DNA of 21,355 nucleotides from a virus. Each line of letters starts with the position of its first letter. Positions within the stretch are counted from its first letter, which is position 1. Location: positions 1 to 21,355 of IMG/VR virus record IMGVR_UViG_3300025687_000395, one strand, 5' to 3'. Made by a program: the position numbers and the translations under genes. Under the pieces are notes generated by a model, which saw only the letters and a list, made by a program, of their open reading frames with translations, searched no databases and had not been told where the DNA came from. Below, in pieces: positions 4,573 to 11,001 of the stretch.

Positions 4573-6309
4573 TTACGCCTCTGTGCCAGGTTCTAGTCCT
4601 GTGTCGGCAGCACCTTCTTCTCCCGGTGTTTCTTCTCCACCTATGGGTTCTTCTGCAGAAGGTTCTGTTTGGCCGGCAATGTCTGCACCTATACCGCCAC
4701 CTGTAACGCCAACATTTCTCAGATCGGAACCTTTGACTGCATCGTCTCTGGCTTCGCCCTTCTCTTCGGCCCACATCACTTGATTTTGTGCCATTTCTTC
4801 TTCGGATAGGCCCAAGAATCGCTTGAGTGCAAATCTTTTGCTCAAATACGGCACTTGTTCAATCTGTGTGAATGCCTGCACTCGTTGGTTGTCCAGTTCA
4901 ATCTGTCTGTATGCGGCAAAATTCTGTGGTGTTGTGAACTTGATGTCAAACAGTGATGTGTCGATGTTGATGCCTCTGTTTTTGAGGAACAGTTTGAACT
5001 CCTGGTTGAGTGGTGGCATCACAATTTCCTGCAGTCTTTCACAGTACTTGTTGAATCTCAATTCTTGGATGTATGCTGTGCCTACTCTGCCATCTGAATA
5101 CTGTGGATTGGCTCCATCGTCTGGACCAGTTGGCAAGTAAGAACTTGGAATTCTCAATGCACGATACAATTTGTTTGTGAAATATCTTAGATCATCAATC
5201 TCACCAAGGTTTGTGCCACCTGGCAGTGTTTCAACCTTTGAGCCTCTGCCTTCTGCTGTCTGCGGAAAGAAGTAGTCTTCATTGATCGACAGTGGATTAT
5301 AAGTTGCATCAATCTGATTGGTGCCTCCTGATATGGATGGAATTCGTCTTTGGTGAATTTCATTTTTCACTCGCTCCACAAAACCCATGGCCATGTGTGT
5401 GGGCATGTTGCCTACATCAATGTAGAACACTCTGCGTTCTGGAGCACGATGCACTCTGTAGATGATGATAGCATCTTCTAACAATTCTTTTTGTTTGAAA
5501 GTTTTGAACACAGTTTCCAGGATGGATGTGCCAAATGGGAAGTTGGAATCTAAACCTTCTGACAGTGATACATGACACACATGATTGGCATCAATGGCAT
5601 ATTGGTTGATGGTGGTTTCAAATCTGCCGCCACCCTGTCCGTAGGTGCCACCAAAACCTGCGCCGCCGCCCAAGCCTCGCTGTCCTCCACCATACTGTGA
5701 GTCTGACACAGCGGATGAACCTGGTGATGAATAGGTCACATTGGCTGCCACCTGCGATGCAGATAGTGATTCCAAATTTAAATTCAAATCTCTGAACACA
5801 TACTGTTCTGGCTGTTTGCCTTTGGATTCATTCACAATCACCTTGTCGCACTTGGATGCGGCCACATGGATCAGTTCCTGTGTTTCAGGATCTCTGATGA
5901 AAAATGAATCACCATACTTGAGTGTGTTGCGGAACATACGGAATATTCTTCTGTTCCAATCGTTGAGTGATGTAAACTGTTGCAGAGCATCTTTGAGTAT
6001 GAGTGCTTCTGATTCTGTGGGTGAGTCATGAAAGTGTAGATCAAAGGGTGTTTCTGTTTTGGAATTTTGTTGTGAACAGAATTCTGCGATGATGTCCAGT
6101 GCGGCATTGACTTCTGAGTCTTGATCCATTTGGTCGTACTGGAAGTATCGCTCCATTCTGTTGGGGTGACCCGTGTAGACTTCTGGCAGATAGGATGTGT
6201 AGTTTCTGCGACCCACCTGACTCATGGGATTTGATGCTGTGTTGGCACCACTCACAGGCGACATTGATCCATCTGGCTTGACTAGATTAAAATATTTTTT
6301 CCAACTCAT
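4573..6309 (-). CDS. 20: Portal vertex protein gp20
   Basis: A 578-residue T4-type portal protein, the dodecameric ring at the head vertex that starts prohead assembly and serves as the DNA packaging channel. Clear family stretches are LPEVYTGHPNRMERYFQYDQ and DSEVNAALDIIAEFC near residues 41-79, KYGDSFFIRDP around 131-141, IYRVHRAPERRVFYIDVGNMP, VETLPGGTNLGEIDDLRYFT and RALRIPSSYLPTG. T4 gp20 is 524 residues. Here a Gly-rich insertion occupies residues about 194-230, and the last 60 residues are an acidic Gly/Glu/Pro tail. The start at 6309 has no good Shine-Dalgarno sequence but has TATAAT 8 bases upstream. It opens the classic portal-to-capsid series. Confidence 0.95.
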   Translation of the reverse strand: MSWKKYFNLVKPDGSMSPVSGANTASNPMSQVGRRNYTSYLPEVYTGHPNRMERYFQYDQMDQDSEVNAALDIIAEFCSQQNSKTETPFDLHFHDSPTESEALILKDALQQFTSLNDWNRRIFRMFRNTLKYGDSFFIRDPETQELIHVAASKCDKVIVNESKGKQPEQYVFRDLNLNLESLSASQVAANVTYSSPGSSAVSDSQYGGGQRGLGGGAGFGGTYGQGGGRFETTINQYAIDANHVCHVSLSEGLDSNFPFGTSILETVFKTFKQKELLEDAIIIYRVHRAPERRVFYIDVGNMPTHMAMGFVERVKNEIHQRRIPSISGGTNQIDATYNPLSINEDYFFPQTAEGRGSKVETLPGGTNLGEIDDLRYFTNKLYRALRIPSSYLPTGPDDGANPQYSDGRVGTAYIQELRFNKYCERLQEIVMPPLNQEFKLFLKNRGINIDTSLFDIKFTTPQNFAAYRQIELDNQRVQAFTQIEQVPYLSKRFALKRFLGLSEEEMAQNQVMWAEEKGEARDDAVKGSDLRNVGVTGGGIGADIAGQTEPSAEEPIGGEETPGEEGAADTGLEPGTEA

Positions 6310-6349: not shown

Positions 6350-8425
6350 CTAAAAATAGCCATTACCAGTCAAGGCCTTGGGCAGTATGCGTGTTAATAA
6401 TCTCTTGGTGTCTGCTTGGTCTTTGGCCATCGCAGTGAGCACATCGAGAGTGGCTTTGGCATAACCACTGCTGTTGTTGCCTAAATTGTTGACCACAGCA
6501 TTGGCAGCTGACATGATGTCACTTGAAGTTGCATTGTTGATCACTTCGCCTGTGCCTCCTGCTTTGATCAACTCGGGTCCCATTTCTCCCACCATGCTCA
6601 GCATGCCTGGAAACAGATTGCCTCCTGAAAAATTATTCGTAAAAGGACTATTGGCTTGGCGTTCTTGGTATATTTTGTTCATGGTTGCGTATGCGGCAGA
6701 ACCAGGAGCTATTTCTATGGTGTTGCCATTCAATTCAACTTTCATATTTTCTGCTTTGACATCAATTGTATCAACGTCTTTTAAATTTAATTTTTCTGAC
6801 AAGGTGTCATAGGTTTTGCCTAACAGAGTTGCAAATCCTTGTACGTCGCCTGCAAATGTCTGGATAATTTTGGCTTGGCTCAGTGAAAAGAATTCATCTT
6901 GTATTGCAGACAGTGCCGCAAGTGTGTTGCCTGTTTCTGTGTCCAGTCCTTTGATGTTTTTGAGAAACTTGGCTCTGTCTTGAGGATCCATTTCTTCCAA
7001 TTGCATGATGTCTTCTGCTGTGAGCACAGTTTTGATTTTCCTCATTGCGTTTTCAAATTCATTGGCACTCACGCCCACTTGATCTAAAAAGTATTGAGCC
7101 GCTTCATCTTGTGTTTTGAAACTTTGCCCTGTGTTTTGATTGATGAGATCCAATTGATTGACAAACTGTCTTCCTTTGAGATATCCATCAGCAAAAATAC
7201 TCGAAAATTCGTTGGTGCCTCTGGCTGCATCAATCAACAATAGATTTTGCACTCTTTGATTCTTTGATGCTTCTGCTAAAACTTGATTTAATTCCGCCTG
7301 AGCTTCCAGCGCTGTGATGGAACCATTTTCCAAACGCTCTTGTAAACTTTCCAATGTGGTGCCAACTTCTGGAAGAAATCCAATCATTTTGAGTGCTTCT
7401 TCGTTGGCAACTCCAAATGGTGTGGTAAATCCAACAAATGCATCTCTAATGGGTCCGTCCAGCAGTGAAGTAAACTTTAATGTTTGTTCAGCTGCCTCAG
7501 CATCCATGTCCATCAGTGCAGCTTGCAGTGATGCCTCTTGTGCGGTTTGATTCAATCTTGCTCGTTGTTCTTTGACATCAAGACCTGTGAGTTCTGTGAT
7601 CAATCGTTCGTTTTTAATTCTTTGCACCAACTGTTCTCTCAGTTGAGTCTCTTCCATTGTCATCATTTTTGCATTGAATCTATTGGTTTGAATAAAGTCG
7701 CCAAATGCTTCTGCTATGGCATCTGAATCAAGCCCCAATGATCTCAACTGCATGCCAGTTTCGCTCAGCGGATCAGTCAATTGATCCAGTTGTCTCAAAA
7801 ACTTCCTTGCGCCTGTGTCAGTGGCTCCACCAAATGCAACAATGCCTTCTAAATTTTGGCCAACAACTTCATTGAATGATCCTAGAGTTACCTGTGCTTT
7901 GATGATTTCCTGGATCAAATCGTCTGTGGTGCCCACCTGTGTGTTGAACTGTATGCCCAAATCTTGCAGACTGGAGAATGTGTCAAGTGTGAGATCCATG
8001 ATTTCCAATTTGAATTTGTACAGTTCGCCTGTGGCACCAATCACGCCTTGCAGAAATCCTCCCACAAATGGAGCCAATCCTGCCAAGTTCTGCATGCTTG
8101 CAGTGGCAATGTCGATCACAGGGTTCAAATCAGAAAATTTACCAGAAGCATTCATCACACCTTTGAGTAGACCTGTTGTGCCCATGATTGCACCACCCAA
8201 CAGATCAAATCCTGCAGTAACTTTGGGAAACTTGTCTTCTAATTCGTCGACTTTTCTACGGAGATCGTCTAAACTCCGAGCAGTTGTATTGGACGACTTG
8301 CCTAAATTGCCGATGCTGCCTGAACTTTGTCCGCCTATGCCTGCCAAACGTCTGAGTGTGGCTTCTGATGCGAATCCCAGTTCCGGTGCTGGTATTTGTT
8401 GTCCGTCGAACTCAATTGTGGCCAT
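6350..8425 (-). CDS. Probable tail tape-measure protein
   Basis: A 691-residue protein, the longest of the left module. After an N-terminal Gly/Ser-rich segment there is a heptad-like helical region (residues 50-70), a Gly/Ala-rich hydrophobic stretch (74-150: FDLLGGAIMGTTGLLKGVM and LAPFVGGFLQGVIGATGELY), then long amphipathic helices to about residue 560. Near residues 612-619 stands VGEMGPEL, followed by a glycine-rich turn and EVINN. The V-G-E-x-G-P-E-L motif followed by Gly and a short valine strand near the C terminus is typical of phage tape-measure proteins, which fix tail length. No resemblance to T4 gp29 is visible by eye. It is divergent from the gp26-family gene and precedes the portal, where T4 has tail tube gene 19. 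Tail function is inferred from motif and architecture. Confidence 0.6.
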   Translation of the reverse strand: MATIEFDGQQIPAPELGFASEATLRRLAGIGGQSSGSIGNLGKSSNTTARSLDDLRRKVDELEDKFPKVTAGFDLLGGAIMGTTGLLKGVMNASGKFSDLNPVIDIATASMQNLAGLAPFVGGFLQGVIGATGELYKFKLEIMDLTLDTFSSLQDLGIQFNTQVGTTDDLIQEIIKAQVTLGSFNEVVGQNLEGIVAFGGATDTGARKFLRQLDQLTDPLSETGMQLRSLGLDSDAIAEAFGDFIQTNRFNAKMMTMEETQLREQLVQRIKNERLITELTGLDVKEQRARLNQTAQEASLQAALMDMDAEAAEQTLKFTSLLDGPIRDAFVGFTTPFGVANEEALKMIGFLPEVGTTLESLQERLENGSITALEAQAELNQVLAEASKNQRVQNLLLIDAARGTNEFSSIFADGYLKGRQFVNQLDLINQNTGQSFKTQDEAAQYFLDQVGVSANEFENAMRKIKTVLTAEDIMQLEEMDPQDRAKFLKNIKGLDTETGNTLAALSAIQDEFFSLSQAKIIQTFAGDVQGFATLLGKTYDTLSEKLNLKDVDTIDVKAENMKVELNGNTIEIAPGSAAYATMNKIYQERQANSPFTNNFSGGNLFPGMLSMVGEMGPELIKAGGTGEVINNATSSDIMSAANAVVNNLGNNSSGYAKATLDVLTAMAKDQADTKRLLTRILPKALTGNGYF

Positions 8426-8435
8426 TTTGTGCGTA

Positions 8436-8443
8436 TATAAATA
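8436..8443 (+). promoter_or_regulatory. T4-type late promoter box TATAAATA
   Basis: A perfect TATAAATA lies in the 35-base gap between the divergent tape-measure and gp26-family genes. It is the box recognised in T4 by the gp55 sigma factor, and a gp55 gene lies in this window at 16313-17089. The expected transcript start would be about 6-7 bases downstream, leaving a leader of roughly 10 bases before the ATG at 8461. A one-mismatch copy, CATAAATA, faces the other way at 8456-8463 and could serve the tape-measure gene. No Shine-Dalgarno sequence is present for 8461. Confidence 0.65.
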
Positions 8444-8460
8444 TTCCTTGTATACTATTT

Positions 8461-9354
8461 ATGGACACACAAAACACCACTTCTAATCCGTTGTCAGCAT
8501 ATTTTAGACAACCCCAGATTTATGTCAAGTTGCCCTCTGGTGGCAAGTATTGGCCACAAGGTGCATTGGCCATGGGAGACTCGGAAGAGTTGGCAGTGTA
8601 TGCCATGACAGCACGTGACGAAATGATGATGAACACACCAGACGCACTGTTGAATGGTGAAGCCACTGTGTCTGTGATTCATTCTTGCATACCACAAATC
8701 AAAAATGCATGGGAAATGCCCATGATTGATGTCGACACCATACTGATTGCCATCAGAATAGCATCATATGGAGAAAGCATGGACATTGCAACTGTAATTC
8801 CAAAGGTCAACAAATCATATGAACTAAAAGTTGATCTAAGGTTGCTGATGGATCAAGTGGTCAAAGGAGATTTCCAAGAATGGATGGAATTGTCCAACGG
8901 ATTGCACGTCAAACTGAATCCTCTAAACTACAGACAGCAAACCAACATAGCTCTCAAGGCATTTGAAGAACAGAGTCTCATGAGATCAGTTGAAGATGCA
9001 ACATTATCTTCCAGTCAAAAAAGAGAAAAATACACATCTATCATATCCAACCTTGCAAATTTGAATTTTGAAAATATTTTGTCTGCAATCAAGTGTGTGA
9101 AAACTCCCGAAGGCGAAGTGGAAGATGCTGAATACATCAGACAGTTTGTGACAAATATTGATTATAAACTGGGTGATGAAATCAAAAAACATGTGGAAAA
9201 ATATGCAAAACTTGGCGCAGTGCCTCCAGTCACTGTGCAGACACCCGAAGAACACATCAAAGAAGGTGCTCCGGCATCATACACTGTGCCTATATCACTG
9301 GACAACTCGAATTTTTTCGTATCAAAGTCCTTTCAACCCCGAAGTCTGATTTAG
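8461..9354 (+). CDS. 26: gp26-family baseplate/tail assembly protein, zero-frame product
   Basis: A 297-residue protein of the T4 gp26 (T4_baseplate) family. The N-terminal domain shows VKLPSGGKYWPQG at residues 22-34, then AVYAMTARDEMMM, NTPDALLNGEATV and DTILIAIRIASYG, the typical ordered motifs of that family. In T4 gp26 is a hub assembly factor not found in the finished baseplate, so it behaves as a chaperone. The frame is open upstream to 8356, but that part overlaps the divergent gene; the ATG at 8461 directly precedes the family start. T4 gp26 is about 208 residues; this one has some 90 extra C-terminal residues. Translation ends at 9352-9354 after FQPRSLI, but a slippery heptamer at 9312-9318 offers a longer product in the -1 frame. 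Confidence 0.85.
   Translation: MDTQNTTSNPLSAYFRQPQIYVKLPSGGKYWPQGALAMGDSEELAVYAMTARDEMMMNTPDALLNGEATVSVIHSCIPQIKNAWEMPMIDVDTILIAIRIASYGESMDIATVIPKVNKSYELKVDLRLLMDQVVKGDFQEWMELSNGLHVKLNPLNYRQQTNIALKAFEEQSLMRSVEDATLSSSQKREKYTSIISNLANLNFENILSAIKCVKTPEGEVEDAEYIRQFVTNIDYKLGDEIKKHVEKYAKLGAVPPVTVQTPEEHIKEGAPASYTVPISLDNSNFFVSKSFQPRSLI
9312..9318 (+). promoter_or_regulatory. Slippery heptamer T-TTT-TTC for -1 programmed frameshift
   Basis: In the zero frame of the gp26-family gene the codons are AAT TTT TTC (Asn-Phe-Phe), so bases 9312-9318 read T TTT TTC, an exact X-XXY-YYZ site. After a one-base backward slip both tRNAPhe still pair with TTT, and the next codon is CGT at 9318. The -1 frame is open from 9180 to the stop at 9546-9548, so the fusion is continuous. 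The heptamer lies 11 codons before the zero-frame stop. No strong stem-loop or pseudoknot is evident by eye just downstream. Confidence 0.75.
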
Positions 9355-9548
9355 AAAAATATTTCAAAGATTTAGAAAACGAAAATCACAAACTCAAACT
9401 TGATCTAACCAAAATGTGTTGGTACATGCGTGGCAGTGTGACACTATCAGAAGCATTTCAAACATCGCGAGATGATAGACAAAAAATTTCAGAAGTGATC
9501 AAAGAAAACATTGAGTTAGTCAAAAAAACCAAAATGCCCTTGTTATAA
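9318..9548 (+). CDS. -1 frame extension of the gp26-family protein (frameshift domain)
   Basis: Seventy-six codons continue from the slippery site to the TAA at 9546. The fusion protein 8461-9548 would have 362 residues, of which the last 76 differ from the short form. The extension begins RIKVLSTPKSDLEKYFKDLE, continues as a charged helix, and ends with a compact domain MCWYMRG-SVTLSEAFQTSRDD and IKENIELVKKTKMPLL. The W-Y-M-R-G start and the K-E-N-I-E-x-x-K-K-T-x-M-P end resemble small proteins encoded next to gp26-family genes in other phages. An ATG exists at 9414 but has no ribosome binding site, and the coding character begins well before it. This favours expression as a fusion, like the G-T extension of lambda tail chaperones. 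Confidence 0.75.
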   Translation, partial: RIKVLSTPKSDLEKYFKDLENENHKLKLDLTKMCWYMRGSVTLSEAFQTSRDDRQKISEVIKENIELVKKTKMPLL

Positions 9549-9805: not shown

Positions 9806-9807
9806 TG

Positions 9808-10131
9808 GATTGACTTCGTCAATCGCTTTTCGCTTGTGCTCAAGCATTTTCTTTTACGAAGTAAAGTTGTCGTCATCACGTTGATGAGCAGTCATAATTC
9901 TGCTTCACAGCAGAACTATAACTTTCGATACATCACGTTTGTATCGCAGTCATCCAATCTCGCTACTTGACGTCGGGCGGTTGTGCTGTACCCGTTAGCT
10001 CATTCTCAACAACGCGATCTGTTTGTACCTCGATTGAATAATTTACAAACAGACTGTGGGTGCTTCTTTTTCTTGCCAGTGCCACATCATTGTGCCTTGT
10101 GCATCAAGGGATTCGCCGCCATTCTGCATGG
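9808..10131. ncRNA. Dense hairpin array, possible structured RNA
   Basis: The gene-less stretch 9806-10269 holds at least eight short inverted repeats in a row. The clearest are 9808-9824 (7-base stem GATTGAC/GTCAATC, 3-base loop), 9832-9845 (GCTTG/CAAGC), 9853-9865 (TTTAC/GTAAA), 9873-9887 (TCATCA/TGATGA), 9898-9915 (TTCTGCT/AGCAGAA), 9926-9946 (CGATACA/TGTATCG), 10018-10053 (10-base stem TCTGTTTGTA/TACAAACAGA) and 10095-10109 (CCTTG/CAAGG). A weaker CGGG/CCCG pair spans 9974-9994 and CCAT/ATGG closes at 10119-10131. The first six start every 20-28 bases. No tRNA or tmRNA pattern fits. The strand is unknown; plus is favoured by the promoter at 9573. That it is an RNA gene is an inference from structure alone. 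Confidence 0.45.
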
Positions 10132-10165
10132 AGTAGTTCCCTATTACCAAAGATGCTATGTTAGC

Positions 10166-10185
10166 CTTAAAAAAGTTTTTTGAAG
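10166..10185 (+). terminator. Possible weak terminator after the hairpin array
   Basis: The stretch contains AAAAAAG followed by TTTTTT inside CTTAAAAAAGTTTTTTGAAG, a nearly perfect inverted repeat of A and T ending in a T run. The stem has almost no GC pairs and hardly any loop, so it would be a poor intrinsic terminator on its own. It lies between the hairpin array and the promoter of the next gene, where a transcript end would be expected. Confidence 0.25.
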
Positions 10186-10203
10186 TGTGCCTTGATTGCC
10201 TAG

Positions 10204-10219
10204 CACATTATATTATGTG
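10204..10219. promoter_or_regulatory. 16-base palindrome, possible operator
   Basis: CACATTATATTATGTG is a dyad in which 7 of 8 base pairs are symmetric. It lies 39 bases before the -10 box at 10258, a distance suited to an activator or a repressor. On the minus strand it includes a TATAAT at 10207-10212 that could read into the hairpin array. No known binding site is recognised. Confidence 0.3.
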
Positions 10220-10233
10220 AACAAAAAATTTTC

Positions 10234-10263
10234 TTGTGCCGTTTTGACTTTTTGTGTTATAAT
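10234..10263 (+). promoter_or_regulatory. Promoter with extended -10 and almost no leader
   Basis: TGTTATAAT at 10255-10263 is a perfect extended -10 (TGnTATAAT). TTGTGC at 10234-10239 could be a weak -35 with an 18-base spacer. The box ends 6 bases before the ATG at 10270, so the transcript would be expected to start at or beside the start codon, making it nearly leaderless. There is no ribosome binding site. Confidence 0.6.
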
Positions 10264-10269
10264 GATGAC

Positions 10270-11001
10270 ATGAAAGTTTGGTTCGAACATCCTTTTGGTA
10301 GATTGGACAAGTATGACATGCAGTGGGTCAAAGTGTTTGCAGACGTAGAACCTGAAGAACAAGAACAAGCACTGGCACAAGGTTTTGTGGACATGGGCGA
10401 GAACTGGCTACAAGTGAGATCCTCTCGCATCAACATCCGAGAATACGTTAAAACAGCACCCCGTTTCAAACAACGCAAAGGCGTCACAGTGGAAAAATGG
10501 TCCGGATCGTTTGCCATCAAACATCAAAATTTATTGCAAGATGTCTACGATCGATACCTACAGCACAATCAATACAAAGATCCGTTTATATTCCAACAGT
10601 TTGAGATCACAGACAAAGAAACATTCTACTGTTACTATCATGACAATCAATTGGTGGCATGGTCTGTGTGGAGCAAGTATGGTCATTCCATAGACAATTG
10701 GCAGTTTGCTTGGGACTACAAAAATCCCGAACTGCATCTTGGCAAGTTTTCCATGGACTATGAAATTCGCACAGCACATGAAAAGGCCTACAATTGGTTT
10801 TATCTGGGCGCATCATATGATGCTTCCTGCAGATACAAACAGGACATTCCTGCATTTGAATGGTGGACTGGTCGTGAATGGAGCCAAGATCTTGCCATGT
10901 ATGATCAACACATCAACGCAGACTGTTTTGTTGAAGATTTGGAAGATCTAGAAAGTGTGTATGAATCCATACACGGTTTGAGCAAACCTAAGAATCGCTA
11001 A
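10270..11001 (+). CDS. GNAT-fold protein resembling arginyl/leucyl-tRNA-protein transferases
   Basis: A 243-residue protein. Its C-terminal half follows the pattern of the Ate1/Bpt C-terminal (GNAT-like) domain: a Tyr-rich strand FYCYYHDNQLVAWSVW (about 125-140), then LGKFSMDYEIRTAHEKAYNW and FYLGASYDAS near residues 157-186, then a basic CRYKQDIPAFEWWTGREW. In that family the order is L-G-x-x-S-x-x-x-x-E-I-x-x-A, then Y-Y-L-G, then a Lys/Arg-containing Y-K-x-x-x-x-P-x-E segment. The N-terminal half (EHPFGRLDKYDMQWVKVFAD) lacks the cysteine cluster of cellular Ate enzymes and may have another role. True family members attach an amino acid from aminoacyl-tRNA to a protein N terminus; here this is an inference by pattern only. 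A different N-acyltransferase is the main alternative. The 3' end overlaps the next, convergent gene by 14 bases. Confidence 0.5.
   Translation: MKVWFEHPFGRLDKYDMQWVKVFADVEPEEQEQALAQGFVDMGENWLQVRSSRINIREYVKTAPRFKQRKGVTVEKWSGSFAIKHQNLLQDVYDRYLQHNQYKDPFIFQQFEITDKETFYCYYHDNQLVAWSVWSKYGHSIDNWQFAWDYKNPELHLGKFSMDYEIRTAHEKAYNWFYLGASYDASCRYKQDIPAFEWWTGREWSQDLAMYDQHINADCFVEDLEDLESVYESIHGLSKPKNR

Follow-up and report, generated by a model that had tools for sequence, protein, structure and literature searches.

The stretch of DNA analysed here (the window) is a 21,355-base IMG/VR virus record carrying T4-type structural genes, among them the gene of the portal protein gp20 (4573-6309, minus strand). 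On the plus strand, a gene encoding a gp26-family protein of the TAC-N type was located at 8461..9354. Its zero frame runs from ATG 8461 to the stop codon TAG at 9352-9354, giving a product of 297 amino acids (33.3 kDa). A T4-type late promoter box, TATAAATA, lies at 8436..8443 on the plus strand and starts 25 nt before the start codon; it occurs once in the window, where 0.23 copies were expected, and 34 of 57 relatives also have it no more than 100 nt ahead of the gene, against 0.55 expected. Divergent from the gp26-type gene and back to back with it, as the first-pass annotation had stated, is a gene of 691 amino acids at 6350..8425 on the minus strand. A long minus-strand frame was present in all 73 relatives with enough upstream DNA; these frames measured 541 to 1138 amino acids, some being cut by the locus end, and 58 of them were detectably similar. 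Judged by its place and variable length, the neighboring gene in the window is probably tape-measure-like.

Near the end of the gp26-type gene, TTTTTTC was found at 9312-9318 (plus strand). Since the zero frame reads AAT TTT TTC there, the T-TTT-TTC slippery heptamer is in phase, exactly as first annotated. The zero-frame stop lies 11 codons past the heptamer, compared with 1 codon in most relatives. The -1 frame had been described as open from 9180; it is indeed open over 9180-9545 and closed by TAA at 9546-9548, but positions 9180-9311 lie outside the product, whose translated -1 part (the extension, TAC-C type) starts at 9318 and comprises 76 codons plus the stop (9318..9548, plus strand). 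The proposed extension of 76 residues was thus recovered, with both W-Y-M-R-G and K-K-T-K-M-P present, and the proposed products of 33 and 41 kDa agree with the masses computed from the sequence, the -1 fusion having 362 amino acids and 41.1 kDa, 65 residues more than the short form. No ATG, GTG or TTG occurs in the -1 frame between 9318 and ATG 9414 of the window, leaving the first 32 extension codons start-free. When the 21 likely genes of the window were surveyed for in-phase X-XXY-YYZ heptamers with a -1 frame of at least 30 codons that outruns the zero-frame stop, this heptamer was the sole one. Farther downstream, the region 9806-10233, between a 69-aa frame and a gene starting near 10234-10273, contains no long likely gene and many short repeat-like runs, and gave no match in Rfam.

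The zero-frame protein was assigned to PF12322 (gp26 / T4_baseplate) with E=1.1e-13 and 51.8 bits, above the curated cut-off of 24.5, and it matched phrog_150 with E=2.7e-19. The Pfam and PHROG matches of the extension (Cnn_1N, Shugoshin and others) were below cut-off, reflected coiled-coil composition and were rejected. The AF2 models had a pLDDT of 87.5 for the N part and 91.8 for the extension, which was modelled as entirely helical. A PDB fold search with the N-part model gave no match at E<=0.001 and no solved chaperone structure, and a PDB sequence search returned nothing credible for the N part and generic coiled coils alone for the extension. Among viral models (Foldseek against BFVD), the N-part model (8461-9351) matched further baseplate hub proteins of gp26 type, and one protein named as a tail assembly chaperone, from an Arthrobacter phage, followed at rank 50 as a weak match (E=0.039). 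The same search also returned uncharacterised proteins of 475-690 amino acids from other jumbo phages (Erwinia Special G and phiEaH2, Ralstonia RP12 and RSF1) at E 1e-6 to 1e-3; these model matches may offer a lead to unrecognised gp26-like chaperones.

Viral contigs scanned with only the window protein as query gave no relatives, a nine-sequence alignment offered no sufficiently conserved stretch, and a four-sequence profile was needed to reach them. With this profile, 80 IMG/VR loci, 39-50% identical to the window, were retrieved, which together with four loci from other scans (L038-L041) made up a window-type set of 84. T-TTT-TTC was present at the same FF in 84/84 loci, followed in nearly all by an extension of 76 codons. 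After the set was reduced to 58 clusters with less than 80% identity, the seven heptamer bases were still invariant throughout, and the second Phe codon of the heptamer was always TTC although the same genes use TTT over TTC 652:147. Since the heptamer is invariant in 58/58 clusters against this codon preference, its conservation is far beyond chance, and a chance heptamer was ruled out. A query with the P-SSM2 protein retrieved 80 cyanophage-type loci, in which T-TTT-TTC was again found in 80/80 and the flanking codons varied synonymously around the invariant heptamer.

Among isolated phages, tblastn with the zero-frame protein reached jumbo phages, and many alignments stopped exactly at residue 286, which is the second F of the heptamer. 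T-TTT-TTC was in phase in 10/10 jumbo phages first examined (Phosso, Atu_ph07, PA5oct, Cassandra, PAC2, 121Q, XaC1, Vibrio 2.275.O, CBB and RaK2), each with a homologous -1 extension (R..LL....EI......) after it; in database records of jumbo phages this extension is a separate small gene, part of one, or unannotated. The same heptamer was found in Salicola SCTP-2, Vibrio KVP40, Delftia phiW-14 and Prochlorococcus P-SSM2, and T-TTT-TTT took its place in Stenotrophomonas CM1 and Pelagibacter HTVC008M. A conserved slippery site with an overlapping -1 frame, which the first-pass annotation had proposed to look for, is therefore found across the gp26 family, and the two frames of the relatives overlap rather than being separated by intergenic DNA. 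The extension was in the +1 (or -2) frame in four far relatives, namely Microcystis Mel-JY01, Rhodothermus RM378, a 484 kb uncultured phage and GXN1. The sites were located at L016:2744, in RM378 (L033/L205), and at about 3750 in L015 and about 2715 in L017; two of the relatives have TTT TTT TGG at the site and GXN1 has CCC C, which suggests frame-switched versions of the same device.

Measured over the extension, pN/pS was 0.38 for the -1 frame; the two remaining frames are rich in stop codons and gave 0.99 and 1.36. At the sequence level, the extension is under purifying selection and evolves as a protein in the -1 frame. In a rival reading these are two separate genes, and past the gp26 stop the downstream frame is translated alone, through re-initiation or translational coupling. 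Such an arrangement agrees with the GenBank records, which annotate separate small genes, and with the ATG that some members have within a few codons; cyanophages have an ATG soon after the heptamer, kept by the P-SSM2-like group at the 4th codon past the slip, so that separate initiation is also possible in cyanophages. However, the first 10 extension codons of the window and of 37/58 clusters include no ATG, GTG or TTG, yet the residues there are conserved; the Arg that directly follows the slip, as read in the -1 frame, is conserved at 98%. In most relatives the -1 frame is closed within 3 codons upstream of the heptamer. Moreover, the invariant heptamer would have no reason to exist between two independent genes, and the equivalent domain of T4 is fused in one frame, in gp51. 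Separate translation was thus considered improbable, and a -1 frameshift is the preferred explanation.

A strong hairpin was predicted from about 5 nt past the heptamer in many relatives, for example AGGATCTTACCC...GGGTGAGATCCT in L134. Scored against codon-preserving shuffles that leave the -1 protein sequence unchanged, relatives had a mean z of -2.1 (-0.3 for a control stretch), and z was below -1.64 in 33/58 clusters. Covariation of the near stem was 0.210, against 0.160 +/- 0.013 in the shuffles, and 0/500 shuffles reached it; a second, more distal pairing partner showed weak covariation and seems to be used in other lineages. An RNA structure past the slippery site, which had been suggested for checking, is thus predicted for many relatives, but the window has no hairpin past the heptamer (z +0.8), and no strong hairpin was found in its closest relatives L122, L125 and L127. 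A stimulatory structure is not required at every known frameshift site.

The hairpin also bears on transcriptional slippage, in which RNA polymerase would add or drop bases in the T6 run and mixed mRNAs would give both proteins. A run of T is present under either mechanism, and it is longer in CM1 (T7) and HTVC008M (T8). The T8 run of HTVC008M takes in part of the stop codon (AGT TTT TTT TAA), which makes transcriptional slippage a serious alternative for this phage. Against it, six T are few for RNA polymerase to slip on strongly, nearly all members retain the C that limits the run to T6, and the downstream hairpin, spaced about 5 nt from the heptamer, agrees with slippage by the ribosome; for the family this mechanism was therefore judged very improbable, below separate translation. 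That a sequencing error or decay broke one gene by an indel, as might be suspected of a metagenomic contig without an isolate, has practically no probability and is refuted by 84 contigs and by isolated phages, each sequenced independently, that are split at this very codon.

To relate the frameshifted gene to T4, its two proteins gp26 and gp51 were compared, and both match PF12322. Along the phrog_150 profile, gp26 aligns over positions 14-235 and gp51 over 13-280, and in P-SSM2 and HTVC008M the match carries on in the -1 frame from near position 206-230. Judged by these profile matches, gp51 is a gp26-like protein with an additional C-terminal stretch. The KVP40 record likens the small frame to the last 40 residues of T4 gp51, and hhalign aligned the cyanophage-type extension with the gp51 C-terminus at 96.7% (E=4.6e-10 for one comparison). 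The profile comparison of the window's own extension with the gp51 C-terminus was in the right register and weak (26%), so its link to gp51 runs through KVP40 and the cyanophages as intermediates. A slippery heptamer is absent from the end of T4 gene 26 (AAA GAG TTC TTT GAG).

Whole-genome searches found one gp26-family gene in each of 18 complete or near-complete genomes with split frames, of which 14 have the extension in the -1 frame (8 jumbo phages, P-SSM2, HTVC008M, KVP40, phiW-14, CM1 and SCTP-2) and four in the +1/-2 frame (RM378, Mel-JY01, GXN1 and LR756508). Two gp26-family genes, a short gp26 and a long gp51, were found in T4, PF-CE2, phiAS4 and KARL-1; one record in this survey is a partial genome, and the short copy of PF-CE2 is a shorter match. 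The split-frame arrangement is thereby distributed in a way complementary to the two-gene arrangement of T4. The window holds one gp26-family gene and does not show the T4-type two-gene arrangement; since the window is itself a genome fragment, a second copy may lie elsewhere. Frameshifting, in -1 or +1/-2 versions of a single site, may well be ancestral for the gp26-type chaperone across T4-like phages, whose distant lineages here include cyanophages, the Pelagibacter phage, KVP40, jumbo phages and uncultured phages. On balance we favor the view that the two-gene system of T4 is derived, a gene duplication having released one copy from its dependence on the slippery site.

The gene order of relatives also points to a tail assembly function. 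KVP40 has tail tube, gp26, extension and a large gene in a row, and HTVC008M has tail tube, gp26, extension, a small gene and the tape measure; the gp26-type gene of these two phages and of Mel-JY01 sits between tail tube and tape-measure-like genes. This is the usual place of lambda G/GT-type chaperones. The proposal that the gp26 family is the T4-type equivalent of the frameshifted tail chaperone is supported by this place and by the conserved site, and we are confident that the window's gene is a gp26-type tail assembly chaperone made in two forms by a -1 frameshift. The analysis itself shows the anatomy of the sequence, its conservation, the selection acting on the -1 frame and a distribution complementary to that of the two-gene phages; we infer the occurrence and efficiency of the frameshift, the binding partners and the chaperone role, the last of these from the family, the place and the two-form design.

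Under this proposal, most ribosomes would terminate at 9352-9354, yielding the short form of 33 kDa, and a minority, with two tRNA-Phe on TTT TTC, would slip back one base and re-pair with TTT TTT. The slipped ribosomes would resume at CGT and stay in the -1 frame until 9548, producing the 41 kDa long form, which would carry the helical C-terminal domain. By analogy with lambda G/GT, both forms might jointly coat the tape-measure protein, recruit tail tube subunits and then leave. No solved chaperone structure matched the N model, so that kinship with lambda G/GT at the level of the fold is no more than a possibility. With a chaperone of this kind, T4-type contractile tails would share the two-form chaperone logic of lambda-type tails.

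Part of this picture is not new. Vladimirov, Gautam and Davidson reportedly dealt in 2022 with the tail assembly chaperones of T4-like phages (PMID 34826709), to judge from the title and from citations; the chaperones meant are probably the products of T4 genes 26 and 51. Of two later papers that cite this work, one states that some T4-like phages have one short and one long copy instead of a frameshift (PMC10885494), and the other credits Vladimirov et al. 2022 with slippery poly-T stretches in the TAC-N genes of T4-like phages (PMC12846349). To judge from these citations, gp26/gp51 as T4-type tail assembly chaperones have very probably been published already, and the frameshift in some T4-like phages probably has too. 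Among the papers searched, none treats this frameshift in RaK2-like jumbo phages or in the uncultured clade of the window, whose gene is strongly supported as a further member of the known frameshifted-chaperone class.

The class reaches back to the frameshifted tail assembly chaperones of lambda G/GT type, which Xu, Hendrix and Duda are said to have described in 2004. Like lambda gpG/gpGT, the window's gene has a slippery site near the end of the short frame and a -1 extension without its own start, and it adjoins a tape measure gene, if the neighbor is one; the difference is that, in sequence or solved fold, its protein gave no detectable match to lambda's or any other known chaperone beyond the weak Foldseek match. 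The chaperones of Vandenendeviridae and Andersonviridae (PMC12846349) similarly have a poly-T site and a -1 extension often annotated as a separate hypothetical gene, whereas their motif is GTTTTT and they belong to another phage group, the comparison covering the site and the extension.

Closer to the window, KVP40, P-SSM2 and HTVC008M have T-TTT-TTC or T-TTT-TTT at the same place, one gp26-family gene per genome and a -1 extension of about 57-63 amino acids. In KVP40 and HTVC008M the tube, chaperone and tape-measure-like genes lie on one strand, whereas the tape-measure-like gene of the window is divergent. The records of the three phages list two genes and no frameshift. Their short genes named 'gp51' or 'baseplate hub assembly catalyst' (NC_005083 186612-186779 in KVP40, NC_006883 7217-7390 in P-SSM2 and NC_020484 16366-16503 in HTVC008M) are very likely gp26 frameshift extensions and not separate genes. 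The same would explain many other records in which gp26 is followed by a short 'gp51' or 'hypothetical protein': they very likely represent one frameshifted gene, and the long form is consequently absent from databases. The jumbo phages RaK2, 121Q, CBB, XaC1, PA5oct, Atu_ph07 and Phosso share T-TTT-TTC and a homologous extension with the window, and most of them also the divergent tape-measure-like neighbor and the portal order; their gene, in contrast, is about 30% identical to the window's, and most isolated jumbo relatives keep two CxxC pairs (zinc-ribbon-like) in the gp26 protein, which the window's protein lacks. T4 gp26 and gp51 belong to the same family (PF12322/phrog_150), gp26 ending at the place of the FF and the long gp51 carrying the extra C-terminal stretch; however, T4 obtains its two forms from two divergent genes, and the window would do so from one gene with a predicted -1 frameshift. 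One protein family thus appears to have arrived at two solutions, frameshift or gene duplication.
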